64,000 nt of DNA from Candidatus Gastranaerophilales bacterium (lineage in GTDB: Bacteria > Cyanobacteriota > Vampirovibrionia > Gastranaerophilales > Gastranaerophilaceae): positions 124,001 to 188,000 of the forward strand of contig CALUVV010000001.1 of NCBI GenBank assembly GCA_944324305.1, written 5' to 3'. Under the pieces are notes generated by a model, which was given only the letters and a program-made list of their open reading frames with translations, ran no database searches and was not told the origin of the DNA. Both the position numbers and the translations under genes were made by a program. Every line of letters starts with the position of its first letter. Position 1 is the stretch's first letter. Below, one piece after another: positions 1 through 63,229 of this stretch.

Positions 1-1438
1 ACGCTATCGCCACCGCTTGAATTGGCATTAGATGTATCGTAGGCAGGTATGATTTTACCCGATAAAGTTATGTAGAAGGGATAAACATCACTCCACAATT
101 GAGAATCGCCTTTGGAGCCGTCGATATCTACATAGACTGTGTAGCCGTAGGAATTAGTATTAGGTACACCGTCATATACTCCGCCCTGAGTATTATTAGA
201 TAACATAGAGATGGCACCTGCGTCGTTATGCATATTATAAATTCGCAAACCGTTACGAAGAGTAATATCAGGTGTTTTGCCGGAAAAGTCAGTTGTACCA
301 TCAGATATGACACTGCCGTTACATACATCACTGCCGCTCATGATATTCGCATAACGTTCAAACAATTTGCAGAAATTTTTACCCTTACGGGGTAAAGTAC
401 GGGGAGAAGGAATACATTTACATTGTTCCTCGCTCCATTCATAGGTATCATCACTGCAAGTGCGGTTTATTGCCGGATTTTGTGAAACAATGCCCGTTTC
501 ATCACTACATATATTGCAAGGGGATAAATCCGCTGGACAGTCGGTGACACAATTGCAAGAACTGTTTAAATGCTGCCCCGAAGGACAGGTTTTAGCCGTG
601 CCTGTTAACTTACATGTATGTTCGTCCCATACCTGACCGCAAGGTATTGTACTTGGTTTATTTGTACAGGCGGGACATTCCGACCAGCTATGAGCTTTAT
701 TACCATTCCAACAAGTTACATAACCTGGACAATTTGATTGGCTGACAGCAAAACTGCCATCCCAACAGGTGATTTTGGGCGGGCACGAACTAGGATTGGC
801 TGCTTGAGAACCGTCCCAACAGTCAGCCTTGGGACAAGACGAGGCATTACTTGCTACACTGCCGTCCCAGCAAGTTATTCCTACTTGTTTGCAAGTACAG
901 CTGTCATAATCCAGCCTGTATCCTGAAGAACAAGTCTTAGAGCATTTCAAAGTACAACAAGCAAAACAGCCGCTTCCTTCTTCATGACGATTTGCATCAC
1001 AAAGTCTCCCTCCTGATTCGTTACAAGTAGAACCTACAAGAGAGTGCCAAGGACTGCATCTTGCATAAGCAGGCTGCGACCACATATCTCTATAGAAACC
1101 AAGAATATTATCCTTTAAATTTTGGGCGGTAACAGGCTTTTTTATTCCCGCAATAACATCGTTAGAATTTAAAGCCTGCTTATATTCAGGGTCTTTAGGA
1201 TCCCAGTCTGCAAGCATCTCTGTAGAAATAGAACGTAATGTTGAATAAGCGTTGTAATAAGTGTATGATACTATATTGTCCAGCTTAGCTTTGGTTATAC
1301 CGATTGTTACAGCAACAATAACTGCAATAATTAACATTACTACAATTACTTCCGCTAAAGTATAGCCCGAAAGTCTTGATTTAAGGGCTTTTAGGCTGCC
1401 CCCCCCCCGACAGTATTAAATAAATTACTCTTCTTCAT
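1..1438 (-). CDS. P1: large Cys-rich prepilin-like protein, 3' end outside window, G10 run in leader
   Basis: A class III-like prepilin signal (GYTLAEVIV) is followed by a hydrophobic helix, a Cys-rich core with several CW(D/N)G units (for example TCWDGS) and a C-terminal region containing VDIDGSKGDSQLW. The C-terminus runs off the left edge. The start is ATG at 1438, preceded by an AAGGAG ribosome site and a TTGAAA-N16-TATAAT promoter. From that ATG, ten codons lead into a G10 run and the frame then stops at once (MKKSNLFNTVGGGAA*). The pilin frame opens only if the run is 8 or 11 long. The visible C-terminal half closely resembles P9 at 47035-49280, while the part just after the pilin helix differs. 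Probably an exported filament or surface subunit; function inferred from the signal only. Confidence 0.75.
1399..1408. repeat. C10 homopolymer run in P1 leader
   Basis: Ten C on the + strand (G10 in the coding strand), flanked by G on both sides. It is one base short of the length that would join the P1 start codon to the pilin frame. Confidence 0.95.
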
Positions 1439-6619: not shown

Positions 6620-7308
6620 TTAATATGTCATTTCCCAGTTATCGTTTAAGATTTTTCCGAAACATCCTGCAGTTCCGTTACCGAAACAATCTTCTTCAAA
6701 ACGTGTTTCTCGTTCTTCTGTTGATAATGGCGCGGAAGTCCCCTGGTCATCAATTATTCCGTTATTGTACACAAATACAAAAAAACAATCACGTCCTAAA
6801 ATATTCGGACCTTTTAATCCGTTAACATCTATTGCAAAATAGACATTCAAATCACCGTTATTTGCGCCCTCTGTAAATGTTGTTCTTATAGATGCACCGT
6901 TTGCAAGTACAAATGCTTTATTTTGTCCGAAATTACCGCTTTCCCCATTTAATCTTTTGTACTCATCTGCAAAACATCCTGCCAAAGTGTCACATTCTTT
7001 AATTACTTTAAAATATGATCTTATAAAATCCTCTACGGCTGCTGAAGATGTTAATCCGGCTTCCTTTAAATTAACAGCATTTCTGTCTGTCTGATATTGC
7101 AAAAGAGCCTGCTGCATTTCATTATAAACTTTATGTAATTGGGTTACATAAGTTTTGCGCTGATGATTTTGCATTAAACTCGGAACGGTCATCGCAGATA
7201 CAACGCCGATTATACCTAAAGTGACCAATACCTCTGCAAGTGTAAACGCAGGAGCTGAGCCTAAAGTACGCCCCCCCCCCGCGTGGCAAAACTAAATAAT
7301 TTTTTCAT
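6620..7308 (-). CDS. P2: prepilin-like protein, G10 run in leader, frame closed as sequenced
   Basis: The start is ATG at 7308 with an AAAGGAG site; the leader reads MKKLFSFATRGGGVL* in the zero frame. With one more base in the run it reads through ATRGGGGRTL, then APAFTLAEVLVTLGIIGVVSA, giving 229 residues. The globular part has the family metal-loop-like motif 'DVNGLKGPNILGRDCF' and the shared C-terminal signature 'CFGKILNDNWEMTY'. The gene starts 24 bases after the trmD stop and so probably rides on the rimM-trmD transcript; it ends at a strong hairpin. Likely an exported pilin or pseudopilin; cleavage would fall between Ala and Phe rather than the usual Gly and Phe. Confidence 0.8.
7271..7280. 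repeat. C10 homopolymer run in P2 leader
   Basis: Ten C on the + strand between G bases. The distance from the ATG to the pilin codons leaves remainder 2 modulo 3, so one added base restores the frame. Confidence 0.95.
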
Positions 7309-10197: not shown

Positions 10198-10919
10198 ATG
10201 AGCACACAAAAAGCGTTTGAGATTGCCCCCCCCCCGCAAAGTCAAGTTATAATAAGGGTTTAAAAGGATTTACATTAGCGGAAGTATTAATTACACTGGG
10301 GATTATAGGAATTATTGCCGCTTTATCACTGCCTGTATTAATCCAAAATCATAAAAAAAATGTAGTTGAGACTAAACTAAAAACATTCTACACCATTATG
10401 AACCAGGCTTTACAAAAAAGTGAACTGGAATATGGCGATAAATCATTATGGAATGATGCGGGCGGGCATTTATGTTACGGCTGCGTGAAAGCTGACCCTC
10501 TTTTAACAGATGCACAATTTTTTGATAAATATCTCAGACCGAATTTAACGGTAATTGATTATAAAAGAACAGCACAACCCGGGATTTACGATTTTCCGTT
10601 AGATACTTATACTCTGAAGAACGGTTTGCAATTCGTAGTATATGACAGCGGCGCAAATTATTGGCTGTTTACCGATACAAAAACAGAAAAGGTCAAAGGA
10701 AAAAATGCATTTATGTTTGCATTTATTCCCAGAATTGAAGACGATTACAAATACCTCTGGATATTTCATGAAAATAAAGGAATAGAGCCTTTTGCATACG
10801 GTTTTACAGGTTCTTATGAATATAATATGAGCCTGTGCAAAAAAAATGCTGATAGCTGTACAAAAATTATACAAATAAACAATTGGAAAATTCCGGATGA
10901 TTACCCGATAAAATTCTGA
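10198..10919 (+). CDS. P3: prepilin-like protein, C10 run in leader, frame closed as sequenced
   Basis: The start is ATG at 10198 after AAAAGGAG. The zero frame reads MSTQKAFEIAPPPQSQV and then stops at the TAA of 'GGGTTTAA'. With 8 or 11 C the leader continues through AKSSYNKGLKG into FTLAEVLITLGIIGIIAAL, giving 240 residues at 11. Cleavage would be after Gly with Glu at +5, the classical site. The globular part resembles P11 ('FAFIP', 'YKYLW') and ends with the shared signature 'CTKIIQINNWKIPDDYP'; it lacks the DxNG loop. Here the coding strand carries C (Pro codons), unlike the minus-strand genes, which carry G (Gly codons). Confidence 0.8.
10226..10235. repeat. C10 homopolymer run in P3 leader
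   Basis: Ten C on the + strand, which is also the coding strand here, flanked by G on both sides. One base short of the in-frame length of 11. Confidence 0.95.
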
Positions 10920-14706: not shown

Positions 14707-15464
14707 TTAATAAAGTGCTTCCCAATAACCTTTAGACTTATCATCTGGATTTACATCCTGAATTGCATAATCATAACAGCCTCTGCCGTTATAATTTCCG
14801 TCATCTTTATTTTTTGAGCAAATTTTATTCCAACTGCCGGTTGTATATAAAAATATGTCATAACCATTTCTGTTTGGCCCCTTTTGAGGCCCGTTAGTAT
14901 CAAAAGTCAAAGTAACACCGTCATATTTTCCGTGGTAAAAAAAAGTAAGACTTGATATGACGGTTCCGTCTGATAAGTGATACAATGCAGCATAAGGAGT
15001 ATTAAAATATGTAATGCCGTAAAGATTTCCGTATAATTCTGAAGATTTTCCCGAATAATTCAAAACATATATTTTTTTATTATTCAAACTATACTGATCC
15101 AATTCAGTTATTTTGTTAAAACGTGATAAAAAGAATTCATTTATGTCTTGAAAATAAGATATATTATCAGAGTGACAAGAATATGTTTCTGTTTCCGGCA
15201 GATTACCGCAAATTGAGTTTAAATCTTTAAAGGTCCCGTATCCGAATTCATCAGCGGTAAGATTTAATGCATTTGCGATAATACTGGCGGAACGCTTAAA
15301 AGCTATTTCAAGTTGCTTTACTTTATATTTGTTAATCACATTCGGAAGTGTTAATGCAGATATAACACCGACTATGCCTAATGTTATTAGTACTTCCGCT
15401 AAGGTAAATGCAGGTTTAGGAGCTACAAAATTGCCCCCCCCCCGACATAACTAAATTTTTTCAT
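14707..15464 (-). CDS. P4: prepilin-like protein, G10 run in leader, frame closed as sequenced
   Basis: ATG at 15464 follows AAAGGGG; the zero frame gives MKKFSYVGGGAIL*. With 8 or 11 G it reads through GGNFVAPKPA into FTLAEVLITLGIVGVISAL, giving 252 residues at 11. The mature part has the motif 'DTNGPQKGPNRNGYDIF' and ends 'GYWEALY', a C-terminal type shared loosely with P10 ('QYWDCLP'). Its own promoter is present (15487-15515). It lies tail-to-head after P5 on the same strand. Probably an exported pilin-like subunit. Confidence 0.8.
15434..15443. repeat. C10 homopolymer run in P4 leader
   Basis: Ten C on the + strand flanked by G. One base short of the in-frame length of 11. Confidence 0.95.
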
Positions 15465-15523: not shown

Positions 15524-16252
15524 TTAATCTTTCGATTGACCTGCTGTATATTTTTCATAAATCGGATCTCCGCCGCCAAGTATATTCTTCAAGCTGTTCC
15601 AGCCGCTGCCTGACCAGCCGTGAAAAGATCCGTTTTGACGAATTTTTAATTGAAATACATCAGCACCGTATTGATTAGGCGCGGCAGTTCCGTTAGTATC
15701 AAAAGTTATTAATGCACACATGTACTCTGTCCATTCAAAAATTTCAGGCTTTCCCGAACTGTCAACAATAGTATTACCGTCAGAGTCATACTGAGGACCT
15801 GATGTAGTAAATTCACAAGAAGAGTACTGTCTGACAGCAATTATGGAAGAATCCTTCAGCACCAGGAAAGGATAACTTATTGTATCTGCTCTTGATGTAC
15901 TGCTTTCATCATACAAAGGATATGAATAAGTAATAGAATAACGTGATTTACTGCAACTATTAGAAGAAAGACAAACTTCAGCTCCGTCAAAATATTTTGC
16001 AAAAGCAGTTAAAACTTCATTAGATGTCTTAGAAGTATCAAACAAACCGGTAACGTCACCGGGACTTTCATTATCAGCCTGAAATCTCTGGATTGCCTGA
16101 CTTATTAATGAGTATGTTCTTTTCGCACGCGTTGCAAATTCTTTATTCTTATAATTAGCAATCAAATTTGGTAAAGTTAGTGCTGCAACTACACCGATTA
16201 TACCGAGCGTTATTAATACTTCAGCTAAAGTAAATCCGAAACTGTTTTTCAT
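15524..16252 (-). CDS. P5: prepilin-like protein with its own internal start
   Basis: A 242-residue protein from ATG at 16252 (GGAG site eight bases upstream). The N-terminus 'MKNSFG' is followed by FTLAEVLITLGIIGVVAAL and a globular part with 'DTNGTAAPNQYGADVFQLKI'. An upstream leader with its own ATG (16383), ribosome site and G10 run would fuse in frame to this gene if the run were 8 or 11 (286 residues). Unlike most family members, P5 can therefore be made without the run, from an internal promoter at 16289-16316. Confidence 0.85.
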   Translation of the reverse strand: MKNSFGFTLAEVLITLGIIGVVAALTLPNLIANYKNKEFATRAKRTYSLISQAIQRFQADNESPGDVTGLFDTSKTSNEVLTAFAKYFDGAEVCLSSNSCSKSRYSITYSYPLYDESSTSRADTISYPFLVLKDSSIIAVRQYSSCEFTTSGPQYDSDGNTIVDSSGKPEIFEWTEYMCALITFDTNGTAAPNQYGADVFQLKIRQNGSFHGWSGSGWNSLKNILGGGDPIYEKYTAGQSKD

Positions 16253-16349: not shown

Positions 16350-16359
16350 CCCCCCCCCC
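16350..16359. repeat. C10 homopolymer run in P5 leader
   Basis: Ten C on the + strand flanked by G. One base short of joining the leader ATG to P5. Confidence 0.95.
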
Positions 16360-19356: not shown

Positions 19357-20001
19357 ATGAATAATCAGAAAGGTTTCACTCTGGCGGAAGTTTTGATAAC
19401 ACTTGGAATTATCGGGGTTGTTGCAGCGTTAACTCTTCCTGCACTTATACAGAACCACAAAAAATCCGAAACAACAGCAAGATTAAAAAAATTTTACAGC
19501 ATCATGGCACAGGCTGTATTAATGTCTGAAAACGACAACGGACCTGTTGAGGATTGGGAGAAAGATGAAGGAACGACTAAAGATGAAGAAACAGGGCTTT
19601 ATCCTGACAGCGATTATGAAAGTTCGGAAAAATACTTCAACAAATATATCAAGAATTATCTGAAATATTTAAAAACCGAAAAAGATGAAAAGACAAATTT
19701 ATTTAAAGTTTTATTGACTGACGGAAGTTCCGTTAAATTCCGTAACGGAGCCTGCATGGATTTAATTTTTGATATTAACGGTGATAAAAAACCAAATGAA
19801 GAGGGACGTGATCAATATCGTTTTTTAATCTGTAAAAAGTCAGAAAGTGATACTAACCGTAGTTTCAGCGCATATATCAGATCGAACGCAAAAAGCAGGG
19901 CGCAAAGGCTTAATTACTGTAAAAGTACACCTATATATTGCAGCGGCTTACTTGAATATGACAATTGGGAAATCAAAAAAGACTATCCTCACAGGTTATA
20001 A
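19357..20001 (+). CDS. P6: prepilin-like protein without a homopolymer run
   Basis: A 214-residue protein with a short leader 'MNNQKG', classical cleavage after Gly, and FTLAEVLITLGIIGVVAAL. It carries the 'DINGDKKPNEEGRDQYRF' motif and ends with the family signature 'CSGLLEYDNWEIKKDYP'. It is the only one of eleven family members with neither a C/G run nor a long leader, and the only one next to a dedicated regulator and palindrome. This suggests that its control is by repression rather than by slippage. ATG at 19357 follows TAGGAG. Confidence 0.9.
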   Translation: MNNQKGFTLAEVLITLGIIGVVAALTLPALIQNHKKSETTARLKKFYSIMAQAVLMSENDNGPVEDWEKDEGTTKDEETGLYPDSDYESSEKYFNKYIKNYLKYLKTEKDEKTNLFKVLLTDGSSVKFRNGACMDLIFDINGDKKPNEEGRDQYRFLICKKSESDTNRSFSAYIRSNAKSRAQRLNYCKSTPIYCSGLLEYDNWEIKKDYPHRL

Positions 20002-38102: not shown

Positions 38103-38926
38103 TTAATACATCTTTTTAAAGTAGTCAGGATCACTTAAAGCTTTTGCCGCACAGGCTATACCGTTCAGCCTGTCATTAGAATTTTTTGAACAGTATTTAT
38201 CCGTATCTGTATATGTAGTTCCTTCTGCTCCCATAGGTAATAGCTTTCCTTCAGACGTAATTTCAAATGTAAACAAATCTCTGCCGAAAACATTCGGCTT
38301 CTTGTTCATACCGTTAACGTCTACAGATATAAATAAGCGCGGGACAGATGAACTCGGATTTTCAATCATAATTAATGTTCCGTCTGACAATAAAATTTGA
38401 CCGTCATCAAAAAAATCTGTTTTTACAGTTTGTGAAAGGCTGTACGTTTTATAATTTTTATATGCCTTAACTGCAGAACTTTCGTTATCGCCATCTTCAT
38501 GTTCTCCGGATATTATTCCGCTGTTTGAATCGGTTTTAAGAGCTTTGAAGTATTTGCGATATGTAACGGAAAAAGTTTTAGGAGGGTAATCTTGCGGCAA
38601 AATATCGGTGCCTATATCCGTTTTCATAAATTCAAGCGCCTGAGAAATTTCAGAATACCCCTTATTTAATGCAGATTGTAACTCTCTGTTTTGAGTGCTG
38701 TTAATCAATGAGGGCATTGTCATTGCGGCTGCTATGCCAATAATACCCAGTGTTATCAAAACTTCCGCCAGAGTAAATCCCTTTTGATGGTTAGCTGCTA
38801 AACTTCCTTGCAGCTTACCGCTTAGAGGACGCCCCCCCCCCGAGATGCTACGCAGGTAGACACGTCAACACAAAAGTTGTGAAACTTTTGATGTAATGGC
38901 ATCTGTTTTGTTTCATTTGTTGTCAT
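38103..38926 (-). CDS. P7: prepilin-like protein with long leader, G10 run, frame closed as sequenced
   Basis: ATG at 38926 follows AGAAAGGAG. The 28-codon leader begins MTTNETKQMPLHQKFHNF and resembles P8's. It enters the G10 run and stops (SRGGGVL*). With 8 or 11 G it reads on through RPLSGKLQGSLAANHQKG into FTLAEVLITLGIIGIAAAM, giving 274 residues at 11. The globular part carries 'DVNGMNKKPNVFGRDLFTFE' and ends 'PDYFKKMY'. The leader also encodes a perfect 8-bp hairpin. It is convergent with the efflux operon. Confidence 0.8.
38832..38841. repeat. C10 homopolymer run in P7 leader
   Basis: Ten C on the + strand, flanked by G. One base short of the in-frame length of 11. Confidence 0.95.
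38871..38890 (-). other. P7 leader hairpin
   Basis: CAAAAGTT, loop GTGA, AACTTTTG: a perfect 8-bp stem inside the leader coding region. The P8 copy has the same loop and a compensating base-pair change. Confidence 0.6.
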
Positions 38927-46020: not shown

Positions 46021-46722
46021 TTACCACGGATAGTCGTCCTTGAACTCCCACCCGTCTTGCATCAGTTTGGCGGTACACAAATGTACTAATTTATGCTTAG
46101 TGCAATCTTCAATCAGATTATAACCTGAAGGGATAATACCGGCTTTATGAAAGTTCTTTATTTGCCCGTCTAAAACATACAAATTTAAGTTTTTCGACGT
46201 AGGACGCATTATTATAAAAAACGTATGAATATCTTTACCTTTTGCATTAGGTTTTTTAAAACCGTTTACATCTACAATTAACCCCGTCAGGTAATACCCG
46301 TCGTCGTCGTCCGAGGAAACTTTTTTAGGGAACACAAGTTCACCACTAGCTAATAAAAAACAACCACTTCTTGCTACATTAAAAGAAGTCATAAGATGCA
46401 ACCCTGTTTCATATCCGTAATCAGTGCAGTTATTGCGTAAAATCTCATCATCTACACTGGAAATTCCTTTTAATTCAGGAAAAATATATTTTTCAAATAC
46501 AGTAGCACTGTAATTATTATTACCTTCCCAATTTGCAGCCTCACCATTGTGAAGTTCTGCTGATATATATGCTTGACTTAACAGAGAATAAAACCTTTTT
46601 GTCTGTACTGCTAAAACTTTTTTTTGATGATTTGCCAAAACAGCGGGCATAGTCAAAGCAGCCACTATACCAATTATACCCAAAGTAATCAAAATTTCTG
46701 ATAAAGTAAATGCTTTTTTCAC
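46021..46722 (-). CDS. P8: prepilin-like protein with internal GTG start and in-frame long leader
   Basis: A 233-residue form from GTG at 46722 (AGGGG site): 'VKKA' then FTLSEILITLGIIGIVAAL. It carries 'DVNGFKKPNAKGKDIHTFFI' and ends 'CTAKLMQDGWEFKDDYPW'. Upstream, a leader with ATG at 46914 runs through an 8-base G run in the same frame with no stop, so a 297-residue form is also open. It is the only run in this window that is in frame, and the only one not 10 long. An internal promoter with palindrome lies between. Confidence 0.85.
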   Translation of the reverse strand: MKKAFTLSEILITLGIIGIVAALTMPAVLANHQKKVLAVQTKRFYSLLSQAYISAELHNGEAANWEGNNNYSATVFEKYIFPELKGISSVDDEILRNNCTDYGYETGLHLMTSFNVARSGCFLLASGELVFPKKVSSDDDDGYYLTGLIVDVNGFKKPNAKGKDIHTFFIIMRPTSKNLNLYVLDGQIKNFHKAGIIPSGYNLIEDCTKHKLVHLCTAKLMQDGWEFKDDYPW

Positions 46723-46743
46723 TAATAATCCCCTGCCATATTT

Positions 46744-46760
46744 GTGAATATATACATCAC
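46744..46760. promoter_or_regulatory. Candidate operator at the P8 internal promoter
   Basis: GTGAATATATACATCAC, one base different from the element at 16271-16287, in the same place relative to the -10 box. Confidence 0.6.
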
Positions 46761-46761
46761 C

Positions 46762-46789
46762 ATTATAACAGAGTTTAGAAATTTTACAA
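46762..46789 (-). promoter_or_regulatory. P8 internal promoter
   Basis: On the minus strand: TTGTAA, 16 bases, TATAAT, followed by the palindrome and then the GTG start. Confidence 0.65.
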
Positions 46790-46822
46790 TACTTATGAAA
46801 TAAAGACAGGAGCCTTAAACTG

Positions 46823-46830
46823 CCCCCCCC
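46823..46830. repeat. C8 homopolymer run in P8 leader
   Basis: Eight C on the + strand flanked by G. The reading frame is open through it. Confidence 0.95.
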
Positions 46831-46858
46831 GAACAATACGCGCGTAGACACATCTGCA

Positions 46859-46878
46859 CAAAAATTGTGAAATTTTTG
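46859..46878 (-). other. P8 leader hairpin
   Basis: CAAAAATT, loop GTGA, AATTTTTG. It has the same loop as the P7 hairpin, with one base pair changed on both sides (G-C to A-T). Confidence 0.6.
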
Positions 46879-46933
46879 CCTTAATGGCATCTTTTTTGTT
46901 TCTTTAGTTTTCATATTTGCTCCTTTCTGTTTT

Positions 46934-46962
46934 ACTATAACAAATATTTTGACCATTGTAAA
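46934..46962 (-). promoter_or_regulatory. P8 leader promoter
   Basis: On the minus strand: TTTACA, 17 bases, TATAGT, upstream of the leader ATG. Confidence 0.5.
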
Positions 46963-47034: not shown

Positions 47035-49280
47035 TTAGAAGAAAAATTTCATAGGCTGTATCTGCTTGACACGGCACATGGAATTATAATTTGTGGTACA
47101 TTCATCTGCCTTAGTAAATGGAGTGCCATTTTTGCAATAAGGAGTTGCGTCACCGACATAACCTGCGATACAAGCGCCTTCTTTAAATGGGACACTTTTT
47201 GCAAGCCATTTGATACTGCGTTTCCCGCTTGCATAATTCTCATTCTCGACACTTACCTGTAAGTGACGTACACTATCGCCGCCGCTTTGTTCAGGGTTAG
47301 ATGTGTCATATGCAGGTATAATTTTACCAGATAACGTGATGTAGAAGGGATAAACATCGCTCCATAATTGAGAATCGCCTTTTGACCCGTCAATATCTAC
47401 ATAGACTGTATAGCCGTAAGAATTGGTATTTGGGACACCGTCATAAACGCCGCCTTGAGTATTATTGGCTAACATAGAGATAGCACCTGCATCGCTATGC
47501 ATATTATAAATACGCAAGCCGTTTCGTAATGTGATATCTGGAGACTTATTTGAAAAGTCAGTTGTACCATTGGAGATTACACTCCCGTTGCAGACATCGC
47601 TGCCACTCATGATATTGGCATGACGTTCAAATAATTTACAGAAATTCATACCCTTGCGGGGTAAAGTTCTAGGAGAAGGGATACACTTACATTGTTCCTC
47701 ACTCCATTCATAGGTCTCATCGCTGCAAGTGCGGTTGATTGCCGGATTTTGAGAAACCACACCTGTTTCATTACTGCAGATATTACACGGTGATATATCA
47801 GTCGGACAATCATTAACACATCCGCATGAACTGTTTAAATGCTGACCCGAAGGACAAGTTTTAGCGCTGCCTGTACAAGTTTTGTCATCCCAGCTCGCAG
47901 GACAAGCCGGTTTATTGGGACAAGAGGGACATTCCGACCAATTATGCGCTTTATTGCCGTTCCAACAGGTAACATAACCCGGACAGGAAGAGGTACTGTC
48001 GGCCTTTGAACCGTCCCAGCAAGTTACTTGTTTTTTTATACATTCACAACTGCTTGTGTTTAACTCGTAACCTTCCGAACAGCTCTTTGTACAAGCCGGA
48101 CACTCAGATTGACTGTGGACGACACTGCCGTCCCAGCATGTTACTTTATCAGGACAATTCCAATAATATTCTGTGCGTGTGCCGTCCCAACAATCTGTAT
48201 AACACGTACAAGTATTAGGATCTAATTTTTGCTCTGATATATAACATTTTTTGGTACATGTGTTTCCACCGCTGTTTCCGCCGCTTGAACCTCCCGAACT
48301 TCCGCCGCTGCTGCCGCCAGAATTACCTCCGCTGCTGCCGCCTTCCGTGGCAATCTTATGGCAAACTCCTGCCGGCAATCCATAGTCACTGTCATATGCC
48401 AGCCACTCATAACCATCCTGACATTCAATAACATTCTTGCACATATTACCTTCTATCAAAGTGGAACTTATTATATTAGCATGCTGAACAGTTGTATTTT
48501 TAGGCATAAAATCATAAAGTATTTCATTACCGTTACAGGTAGCATCAAATATACCCGTAAACGGTCCGCAGCACTTCCCGCCTTTGCAGCCGGATGAGTT
48601 GCGTTCCATTGTTGTACAATCATACACACAACCAATACTTACACTGAATGCCGCATAGGTAGTATGCCCTTTGTATGTACCAGGACATTTATCATAGCCG
48701 GTATGAATATCTGCAATAATGTCACTACAGGTTTTAGTTTTCGGGTCATACGAAAAATTCGCATTCTTTTCAAACCTGCTTGATGATATTTGTGCATCAA
48801 TATATTTTCCTCCAGAAGCACACCCGTAAACAGTTAGTCTGTCTCCCGCTTTAGCTCTATTAGGCTGAAACCGAAGAGCAAGCGGTGTATGAGATAAAAT
48901 TATTGAAAAAAATCTATAATCATTAGGCGCATTAAATGCAAATAAATTTTTATTATTTAATGCCTGCTTATACTCAGGATCTTGAGGGTCCCAATCGGCT
49001 AGCATTTCGGTCGATATCTTTCGTAAAGTGGAATAAGCATTGTAATAGGTATAAGATACAATGTTATCTAACTTCGCCTTGGTTATACCGATTGTTACAG
49101 CAACAATAACTGCAATAATTAACATTACCACAATTACTTCTGCTAAAGTATACCCCAAGAACCCCGGTGTCGGAGCTTTTAGGTCGCCCCCCCCCCGACA
49201 CTGCGTGCGTAGACACCACTAAACAAGCTTTGAAAAACTTGATTGAACATGGCATCTGTTTTTTTTGCCAATCTTTTCAT
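47035..49280 (-). CDS. P9: large Cys-rich prepilin-like protein, G10 run in leader, frame closed as sequenced
   Basis: ATG at 49280 (AAGGAG) starts a 28-codon leader (MKRLAKKTDAMFNQVFQS...) that enters the G10 run and stops (SVGGGAT*). With 8 or 11 G it continues through LKAPTPGFLG into YTLAEVIVVMLIIAVIVAV, giving 748 residues at 11. After the pilin helix come a variable Cys-containing region, a Gly/Ser linker (about residue 310 of the full form), four CW(D/N)G units with paired Cys ('TCWDGSVVHSQSECPAC'), and a C-terminal domain with 'VDIDGSKGDSQLW'. It looks like a pilin-anchored surface adhesin. Close paralogue of P1. Confidence 0.82.
49187..49196. repeat. C10 homopolymer run in P9 leader
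   Basis: Ten C on the + strand flanked by G. The ATG at 49280 and the pilin codons differ by one base in register. Confidence 0.95.
49224..49241 (-). other. P9 leader hairpin, imperfect
   Basis: CAAGCTTT pairs with AAAACTTG with one wobble pair, at the place of the P7 and P8 hairpins. Confidence 0.4.
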
Positions 49281-56368: not shown

Positions 56369-57111
56369 ATGTTGTTTAAAGAAGCTTTAAAAGTGCCCCC
56401 CCCCCGCGAAACACAGACGGCTCAAGGGCGTTCACTTTAGCGGAAGTTTTGGTCACTCTTGGGATTATAGGAGTTGTTGCGGCTATGACAATGCCGTCAC
56501 TGATAAATAATCAGCGGAAAGCGGTATTATCTTCTCAGTTTAAAAAGCAATATAATGTATTGTCACAGGCACTTGATTTGTGGAAGCAGGAAACAGGCGT
56601 TATCGGGCTTTACAAAATGTACGCAACTTATAACGGTACCGAATACGTAAATTCTGAAAGTTTTATAACACAGTACATGGAAAAGCTTAAAACTGTCGGT
56701 ACAATGGAGTACAAAAAAGGTCCGTATAACTTAAATAAAACAAAAAATATGAATGTCGAAGGTAGAACATGTACCCCGAATACACTGCTCCCTGACGGTT
56801 CTTCAATGTGCGTCAGAATTTGGTCAAGCATGATTACGATTACAACCGATATTAACGGTCCCAATAAAAATCCTAATGCTTGGGGATATGACATTTTTAC
56901 TTTTGTTATAGATGAATCCACGGAACAGTTACGGGGAATGAAACCCACAAAAGCAGCACCCGACCCTAATGCAGAATATCCGGAAGGAGACGGGCTACCT
57001 TGTTCATTTAAAATTCAAAGTGCAGGTAACGGCCTGGGATGTGCGTACTACGCTGTTACAAACACTTGTCCTGATGATGAAAAAAAACAATATTGGGATT
57101 GCCTGCCCTAA
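56369..57111 (+). CDS. P10: prepilin-like protein, C10 run in leader, frame closed as sequenced
   Basis: A perfect promoter and AAAAGGAGG ribosome site lead to ATG at 56369. The zero frame reads MLFKEALKVPPPRETQTAQG and soon stops. With 8 or 11 C it reads PPRNTDGSRA into FTLAEVLVTLGIIGVVAAM, giving 247 residues at 11. It carries 'DINGPNKNPNAWGYDIFTFV' and ends 'YWDCLP'. The leader is nearly the same as P11's. Such strong expression signals in front of a closed frame argue against simple decay. Confidence 0.82.
56396..56405. repeat. C10 homopolymer run in P10 leader
   Basis: Ten C on the + strand, which is the coding strand, flanked by G. One base short of the in-frame length of 11. Confidence 0.95.
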
Positions 57112-62501: not shown

Positions 62502-63229
62502 ATGTTTATTAGAGAAGCTTTAAGACTGCCCCCCCCCCGCAAAACACAGACGTCTCAAGGGCGTTCACTTTAGCGGAAGTTCTGGTTACTCTGGGGATTA
62601 TAGGAGTTGTTGCAGCATTAACACTGCCGAATTTAATTGCCGATTACAGAAATAATGTTGTTGAAACCAGACTTAAAAAATTTTATTCGCTTATGAATCA
62701 GGCAATTTTACAATCTATTGTTGATAACGGAGAAGTGGAAAGCTGGAGTTATTTTAATGATGATATGACAGATGAAGACGGCGATAAAGTTAATCAGGCT
62801 GATAAAAACGATGCATCGTTTCAACGCTATCTTGCGCCGTATCTGAAAGTTATTGACAAAAAAGAAGCAAAAGACGCTAACGGTAAAAAAATCTTTATTT
62901 ATTTCTTATCGGACGGAAGCGCATTTTCTTTTGCCCAGCATGAAAATCGGGACATACTGTTTTACCCTAAAAATCCTGAAAAATGTCTAAAAAAACAAGA
63001 TTACGCAGGAAGCTGCGCTTTTGCATTTGAGTTTTATCCGATAAGTAATTCTAAAGATTGGAAATATTTATACGGCAAGGGAATGGAGCCTGCTCTTTAT
63101 CAATGGGACGGAGATGAAAAAACTCTTTATAATAAATGTAAATCCGGAAGCGGAGGATATTGTACCGCGATTATACAAAGAAACGGCTGGAAAGTCCCGA
63201 AAGATTACCCCGGAAGAATAAGCTTTTAA
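62502..63229 (+). CDS. P11: prepilin-like protein, C10 run in leader, frame closed as sequenced
   Basis: ATG at 62502 follows AAAAGGAGG. The zero frame reads MFIREALRLPPPRKTQTSQG and soon stops. With 8 or 11 C it reads PPQNTDVSRA into FTLAEVLVTLGIIGVVAAL, giving 242 residues at 11. The globular part resembles P3 ('CAFAFEFYPISN') and ends 'CTAIIQRNGWKVPKDYPGR'. An ATG eight bases earlier is out of frame and stops at once, so it is not the start. The leader is nearly the same as P10's, while the bodies differ. Confidence 0.82.
62529..62538. repeat. C10 homopolymer run in P11 leader
   Basis: Ten C on the + strand, which is the coding strand, flanked by G. One base short of the in-frame length of 11. 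Confidence 0.95.

Follow-up and report, generated by a model that had tools for sequence, protein, structure and literature searches.

Phase variation driven by repeats has been described chiefly in host-adapted pathogens. The opa-type families of Neisseria, for instance, comprise about 11 dispersed complete genes, each switched by a repeat in its leader region and recombining with the others. In the poly-G contingency genes of Campylobacter, Helicobacter and Neisseria, a run of about ten G or C lies near the 5′ end of surface-related genes, glycosyltransferases among them, and the frame that it sets turns the gene ON or OFF (PMC6321876, PMC8224891). Campylobacter poly-G tracts are subject to a restoring bias, with insertions favored at G8-9 and deletions at G10-11 (PMC8224891). 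Gonococcal pilE/pilS combines a conserved pilin N-terminus with a variable downstream part, exchange between copies, and a G-rich element near the gene (PMC3547852), while KOPS, AIMS and Chi are strand-biased polar motifs, G-rich on the leading strand (PMC5993296). The pili of Melainabacteria/Gastranaerophilales are mentioned in general terms only (PMC5877343), and our literature search, which was not exhaustive, found no report of G tracts or pilin phase variation in these groups, which is weak evidence of novelty.

Here we examine a Candidatus Gastranaerophilales genome (2.2 Mb, 16 contigs) starting from a 64,000-nucleotide stretch, C1:124001-188000, referred to as the window. The genome is closely related to Candidatus Gastranaerophilales MAGs from the gut; one of their records bears the label Fusobacterium sp. 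CAG:439. Judging from sequence, the genome probably holds a default-OFF, slippage-switched repertoire of pilins with recombining cores, a two-layer form of surface variation of which we infer both the switching and the expression.

P1, P9 and their family

A first-pass annotation of the window singled out two genes, P1 and P9, as a pair of Cys-rich, pilin-anchored proteins. Both are real and homologous proteins of this kind (Table 1). The Gly/Ser linker ascribed to P9 is present, and the spacing of the CW(D/N)G units differs between the two; their number, also said to differ, is the same, four in each. Window position 1438 is the first base of a P1 ATG that is not in the pilin frame, and ten G's separate that ATG and the pilin frame. 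This run, on which the first-pass annotation is silent, is the feature that matters most here.

Like type IV pilin-like proteins, P1 has a prepilin cleavage motif and an N-terminal helix. It scores 16.5 bits against TIGR02532 (cut-off 16.3) and, against PF07963, 25.0 bits in a frame search (cut-off 21.2) and 20.4 bits, below the cut-off, in another search. The structure model of P1 is poor (mean pLDDT 50), and Foldseek gave no match for it at E 0.001 or better. Compared with the globular domain of short pilins, the C-terminal domain of the family has only a weak DxNGxKG...DxFxF stretch in common (hhalign E 0.005, probability 7%).

The family layout consists of the GYTLAE motif and helix (64 aa, nearly invariant), a variable core containing CW(D/N)G units, and a conserved C-terminal domain, about 215 aa long, whose last residues are KFFF. 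About 13-16 dispersed copies are found in this genome, several of them cut by contig ends: breaks fall inside P1-family genes at C6:1, C7:1, C11:1, the C4 end and the C13 end, where further copies are half seen. The copies uncut by contig ends are complete genes. No silent-cassette/expression-site arrangement was seen, every family copy whose start is present having its own SD-ATG. A start at a TTG before KAPKS, with the G run serving as Shine-Dalgarno, was considered and rejected: the codon there is CTA, an in-frame start is absent in most copies, and the pattern AGGAGGGGG..TTG does not occur in the genome. The tract was also considered as part of a virus or plasmid, and this too was rejected: P1 had no match in plasmids, and one specific DNA pattern had none in viral contigs.

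Table 1. Features of P1 and P9 and the G tracts of the window (window coordinates unless a contig is given; state as assembled).
Feature	Position	Strand	State or remark
P1 gene	1-1438, running past the window start to about C1:123766	-	closed (register 2)
P1 leader ATG	1436-1438	-	
P1 G10, putative switch tract	1399-1408	-	
P1 prepilin motif GYTLAE	from 1367	-	
P1 helix	to ~1173	-	
P1 variable core	~1173-836	-	followed by the rest of the Cys region
P1 core cassette	836-1173	-	basis: blastn block ends; replaced in the syntenic gene of two other species
P1 conserved C-terminal domain	from 407 downwards	-	
P9 gene	47035-49280	-	closed (register 2)
P9 leader ATG	49278-49280	-	
P9 G10, putative switch tract	49187-49196	-	
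P9 prepilin motif	from 49155	-	
P9 helix	to ~48960	-	
P9 core and Gly/Ser linker	48262-48345 (linker)	-	
P9 C-terminal domain	47676-47035	-	
G10, leader of pilin 6620-7228 (-)	7271-7280	-	closed
G10 (C10 in sense), leader of plus-strand pilin ending 10919	10226-10235	-	closed
G10, leader of pilin 14707-15339 (-)	15434-15443	-	closed
G10, leader of pilin 15524-16252 (-)	16350-16359	-	closed; gene also has its own ATG adjoining the prepilin motif
G10, leader of pilin 38103-38759 (-)	38832-38841	-	closed
G8, leader of pilin 46021-46956 (-)	46823-46830	-	sole open-register tract in the window
G10 (C10 in sense), leader of plus-strand pilin ending 57111	56396-56405	-	closed
G10 (C10 in sense), leader of plus-strand pilin ending 63229	62529-62538	-	closed

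Number, length and distribution of the tracts

Genome-wide there are 179 G runs of eight or more, of which 3 have length 8, none length 9, 169 length 10, and 7 length 11 or more. Runs of at least ten thus number 176, against 0.13 expected from composition; as in contingency genes, homopolymers early in the reading frame are far more frequent than chance would allow. Ten tracts fall in the window, nine G10 and one G8. All of them are minus-strand runs at pilin genes, and three of these genes are themselves on the plus strand; G or C runs of 6, 7 or 9 are absent from the window. Among the P1-family copies with the 5′ end present, all except the C12 copy and the C4-end copy have exactly ten G's between SD-ATG and prepilin motif.

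Within the genus, G10 runs occur in 22 of 23 other genomes (3 to 126 each). Outside it, 15 genomes from the rest of the order have 0-3. One genome of the genus, G002, has mostly longer runs. The idea that it represents a species with a longer fixed length was dropped, as the tracts read there range from 9 to 15 and are not at pilins. These runs (L164-L166) look like ordinary variable contingency tracts and are mostly followed by CA or CG.

On C1-C3, a tract lies within 400 bp of 50 of the 79 listed N_methyl pilins; the other 29, for example the gene at window 19357-20001, have none and are perhaps a constitutive set. At least 150 genes with a prepilin motif are present in the genome. DUF6613, a Pfam entry with no function assigned, is matched by four of the nine short pilins of the window and may be a pilin domain. 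The two pilin leaders at C3:162873 and C3:163739 (L153), identical around the tract and 866 bp apart, are a recent tandem copy.

Reading frame at the tracts

In all, 111 tracts were read in context, comprising every tract of C1-C3, the listed tracts of C4, and part of those on C6, C7, C11 and C13. Two C6 tracts of 11 were chosen for their length, so the sample slightly over-counts 11. Leaders of pilin ORFs, each with an SD-ATG, account for 84 of the 111. In 82 of these, subtracting the tract from the ATG-to-pilin distance leaves 1 mod 3, with 17 different leader lengths and 19 different spacer lengths represented. The probability of such a shared offset is 1e-36 on all tracts and 5e-14 on the 35 distinct combinations, the latter being the fairer figure because related genes are not independent. 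With the tract set to 9, 10 or 11, a leader ORF of at least 150 aa exists in 0, 2 and 82 of the 84, respectively. As in contingency genes, then, tract length decides whether the gene is open, and 82 of the 84 pilins are closed at ten and open at eleven. As assembled, 78 are closed and six open (one G8, four G11, one G10), and five of the six pilin tracts of a length other than ten are open. Another in-frame start is absent in 54 of 77 closed pilins. The sampled tracts of genomes G001, G004 and G007 have the same register. Orthologous tracts of G000 and the relative G004 differ by one (10/11, 10/9 and 11/10), some odd G004 lengths lying beside N's and possibly reflecting assembly errors.

Non-pilin genes with a tract are mostly in frame at ten: 14 of 17 by our own tally, versus 1 of 78 pilins (Fisher p 5e-13). 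The carriers include family-2 glycosyltransferases, a PMT-type transferase, a matrixin-like protease and an mTERF-domain protein, among others. The last of these, at C2:81969 (L138:4022-4987), is a bacterial mTERF-domain protein (PF02536, E 3e-10) with its G10 at residue 16. Two G10 tracts, at residues 130 and 518, lie in a 523-aa open frame (L160; C4:176842 and C4:178008), the second altering what lies downstream. At C3:96744 (L151), two open frames on opposite strands share a single tract close to their 5′ ends; one encodes a histidine kinase and is in frame at 10, and the other, of 356 aa, is open at 11.

Strand polarity and rival readings of the tract

In this genome, tracts are on the minus strand in 47 of 47 cases on C1 and 19 of 19 on C2, and C3 has a single flip, 17 plus then 7 minus. 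The contigs of G007 show 7 minus then 5 plus (C1), 29 plus then 1 minus (C2) and minus throughout (C3, 25/25), and C11 of G019 shows 14 plus then 4 minus. GC skew in G007 changes sign at 300-320 kb on C1 and at about 620-640 kb on C2, both within the tract flip intervals; in the genome studied here, it matches the tract strand in most, not all, stretches. Since tract flips track GC-skew flips, it is the G-rich strand, presumably the leading one, that carries the G run whatever the gene direction, and G10 tracts thereby share the leading-strand bias of AIMS/KOPS-type motifs. As a locator of the flips, dnaA was tried and set aside, as it does not mark them. Nearly all tracts have a C before and a C after, mostly with T at -2 and A or G at +2, in non-pilin genes also, and many have AGCT 9-15 nt on. 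Polarity and conserved flanks together indicate a constraint at the DNA level, and neither is predicted by plain slippage.

The main rival to a slippage-switched, default-OFF repertoire is programmed frameshifting on n=10. Ten would then be the functional length: RNA-polymerase slippage on the run, or a programmed -1 ribosomal frameshift, would restore the missing base in some of the products, and all these pilins would be made at low level with no switching of the DNA. The intact pilin ORFs are in keeping with such a mechanism, as is a uniform length of ten with an offset of exactly one base, retained in other species of the genus. We nonetheless consider it unlikely. The run is G in 69 pilin mRNAs and C in 15, with the register unchanged, and a few pilins stand at 8 or 11 in the open frame. 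Nor does frameshifting predict that tract orientation goes with the replication strand rather than the gene, or that many non-pilin genes are in frame at 10.

It is also conceivable, though very unlikely, that G10 is mainly a recombination-initiating or chromosome-orienting DNA element (compare gonococcal pilE G4 and KOPS/AIMS) and its frame effect a by-product. A neutral by-product would not yield one offset in 82 of 84 pilins, and tracts of which 84 in 111 sit in pilin leaders are not spread as KOPS are. A single run of ten G's also lacks the four G-runs of pilE G4 (PMC3547852), and the core breakpoints described below fall at the helix end, more than 200 bp from the tract. What speaks for an element is the complete strand polarity matching GC skew, the fixed length, the C on both sides at nearly all sites including those in unrelated genes, the frequent downstream AGCT, and the gene conversion that does occur in the P1/P9 family.

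Homopolymers are error-prone, and G004 has N's and duplicated ends at tracts. Even so, an assembly artefact, with true tracts of 11 and all pilins ordinary open genes, is hardly credible when non-pilin genes are in frame at 10 within the same assembly, some tracts of that assembly read 8 or 11, and tracts of 10 with the same offset recur in independent assemblies of other species.

Mosaicism and exchange of cores

Identity between P1 and P9 is far from uniform along their length. The pilin helix (64 aligned residues) is 97% identical in amino acids and 84% in nucleotides, the core 40% and 50% over alignable columns, the section after the core (83 columns) 81% and 79%, and the C-terminal domain (213 columns) 92% and 83%. 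The first-pass description of like ends around a different core is thus borne out, and even divergence, the pattern it had named as incompatible with a mosaic origin, was not found. Values of dS for the pair are 1.34 in the helix, 1.12 in the middle and 1.16 in the C-domain; because dS is 1.1-1.3, the likeness of the ends is attributable to purifying selection on amino acids and not to recent copying. The proposal of gene conversion or antigenic variation is supported as regards mosaicism and cassette exchange, and is not supported as regards recent conversion between P1 and P9 themselves.

Other pairs in this genome bear marks of exchange. Between C1_79 and C7_113, 93 consecutive nt are identical, and dS is 0.30 in the middle section versus 1.96 in the C-domain; between C1_376 and C7_35, the core contains an identical stretch of 147 nt. 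These runs sit inside otherwise diverged pairs, so the P1/P9 family does recombine. Together with the core replacement and the concerted C-domains described next, they amount to gene conversion between copies, as in pilE/pilS, on a between-species timescale.

When the P1 locus was compared across species, as had been advised, its core proved to be exchanged between syntenic flanks. In L048, from species G007, a collinear block of 5.2 kb matches the P1 locus at 81%, taking in leader, G10 and helix and ending at window ~1173. Collinearity restarts at ~836 for 3.1 kb at 79.5%, beyond the gene end; between these blocks, 338 nt of P1 face 689 nt of L048 that are not alignable as a block. L049, from the MAG of another species, is collinear to the same helix end (80.6% over 5.26 kb), and its core at the P1 locus is P9-type, with 55% amino-acid identity to P9 over 413 residues and an alignment score of 1041 versus 433 to P1. 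In G007, a P9-type core sits elsewhere, without flanking similarity to the P9 locus. C-domain identity is 92% between P1 and P9 and 94% between G007 paralogs, versus 75% between P1 and its syntenic counterpart; paralogs beat syntenic orthologs, and the C-domains have therefore evolved in concert inside each genome. Exchange of cores is not constant, because the closely related orthologous pair L038/L051 (87.5% over 4.4 kb) has retained the same core. These alignments show exchange of P1/P9-family cores as cassettes at the level of comparisons between species. Least credible of all is the reading of P1 and P9 as plain diverged duplicates without recombination, which suits a dS of 1.1-1.3 in all alignable conserved parts of the pair and does not suit the abrupt core change between syntenic flanks, the closer C-domains of paralogs, or the long identical runs.

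Proposed mechanism

Under the default-OFF, slippage-switched repertoire that we favor, each leader has a ribosome-binding site and ATG, followed by ten leading-strand G's and then the prepilin frame. With a tract of ten, translation would end after about 15 codons; with eleven or eight, the leader would read into the full pilin, and only at these lengths would the protein be expressed. Slipped-strand errors at the tract, arising within the population, would turn single genes ON or OFF around ten as the stable modal length, and a cell would express only a few of its many tract-bearing pilins at once. Cys-rich cores would move between P1/P9-family loci by homologous recombination, for which the conserved helix and the C-terminal domain would serve as arms. 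Anchoring or assembly would fall to the pilin N-terminus, and the core, putatively displayed at the surface, would be the exposed, varying part of the protein.

A modal length can be explained by the restoring length bias of poly-G tracts. What sits less easily with a plain contingency reading is the uniformity of the lengths, 169 of 179 being ten and none nine; those of Campylobacter (53% nine, 26% ten; PMC6321876) are looser. The tightness of tract length, and pilin frames set such that the modal length is OFF, are what is unusual here. Loss of mismatch repair was examined as a cause and is not the explanation, because MutS is intact: nothing interrupts its 905 codons, and the TAG that had been flagged is the stop at the end of the gene. 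A more far-reaching account, which we regard as distinctly unlikely, would make the tract a defined, oriented DNA element (YC-G10-CR, often with AGCT 9-15 bases on), kept at ten G's by a dedicated activity coupled to replication. By stepping single genes to eleven and back, this activity would maintain a counted, default-OFF surface repertoire made up of a large pilin superfamily and some glycosyltransferase and other genes.

Significance and comparison with known systems

A non-photosynthetic gut cyanobacterial lineage would, on this account, carry more frame-switch tracts than any Campylobacter strain in the cited survey. The default-OFF repertoire would explain, in a directly testable way, how a bacterium living in the gut might vary its surface, and it raises the question of what keeps 169 tracts on one replication strand at a length of exactly ten. 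There is also a consequence for annotation: standard gene callers will misplace the starts of tract-bearing pilins or call them frameshifted.

The tracts resemble those of poly-G contingency genes in run length, 5′ position, surface-related targets including glycosyltransferases, and control by frame, and a restoring length bias is known in those systems. Unlike Campylobacter, with 5-81 phase-variable genes per strain (PMC6321876, PMC8224891), this genome has 179 tracts, 94% of them at exactly ten. Also unlike the contingency genes, more than 80 belong to a single superfamily and nearly all of these are OFF at the most common length; the tracts have strict replication-strand polarity and conserved flanking bases. 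The P1/P9 family shares with pilE/pilS its conserved N-terminus, variable downstream part, inter-copy exchange and nearby G-rich element, but has neither a single expression site nor silent truncated copies, each copy with its start present having its own SD-ATG; and whereas the pilE G4 comprises four G-runs upstream of the promoter (PMC3547852), here one run of ten lies inside the leader. The opa-type families of Neisseria are similar in their dispersed complete genes, individual leader-repeat switches and recombination between copies; they differ in having about 11 genes, against more than 80 here, where the repeat is a homopolymer of fixed length. Finally, the tract is like KOPS, AIMS and Chi in being a G-rich motif on the leading strand, and unlike them in lying mainly in pilin leaders, where it sets the reading frame.
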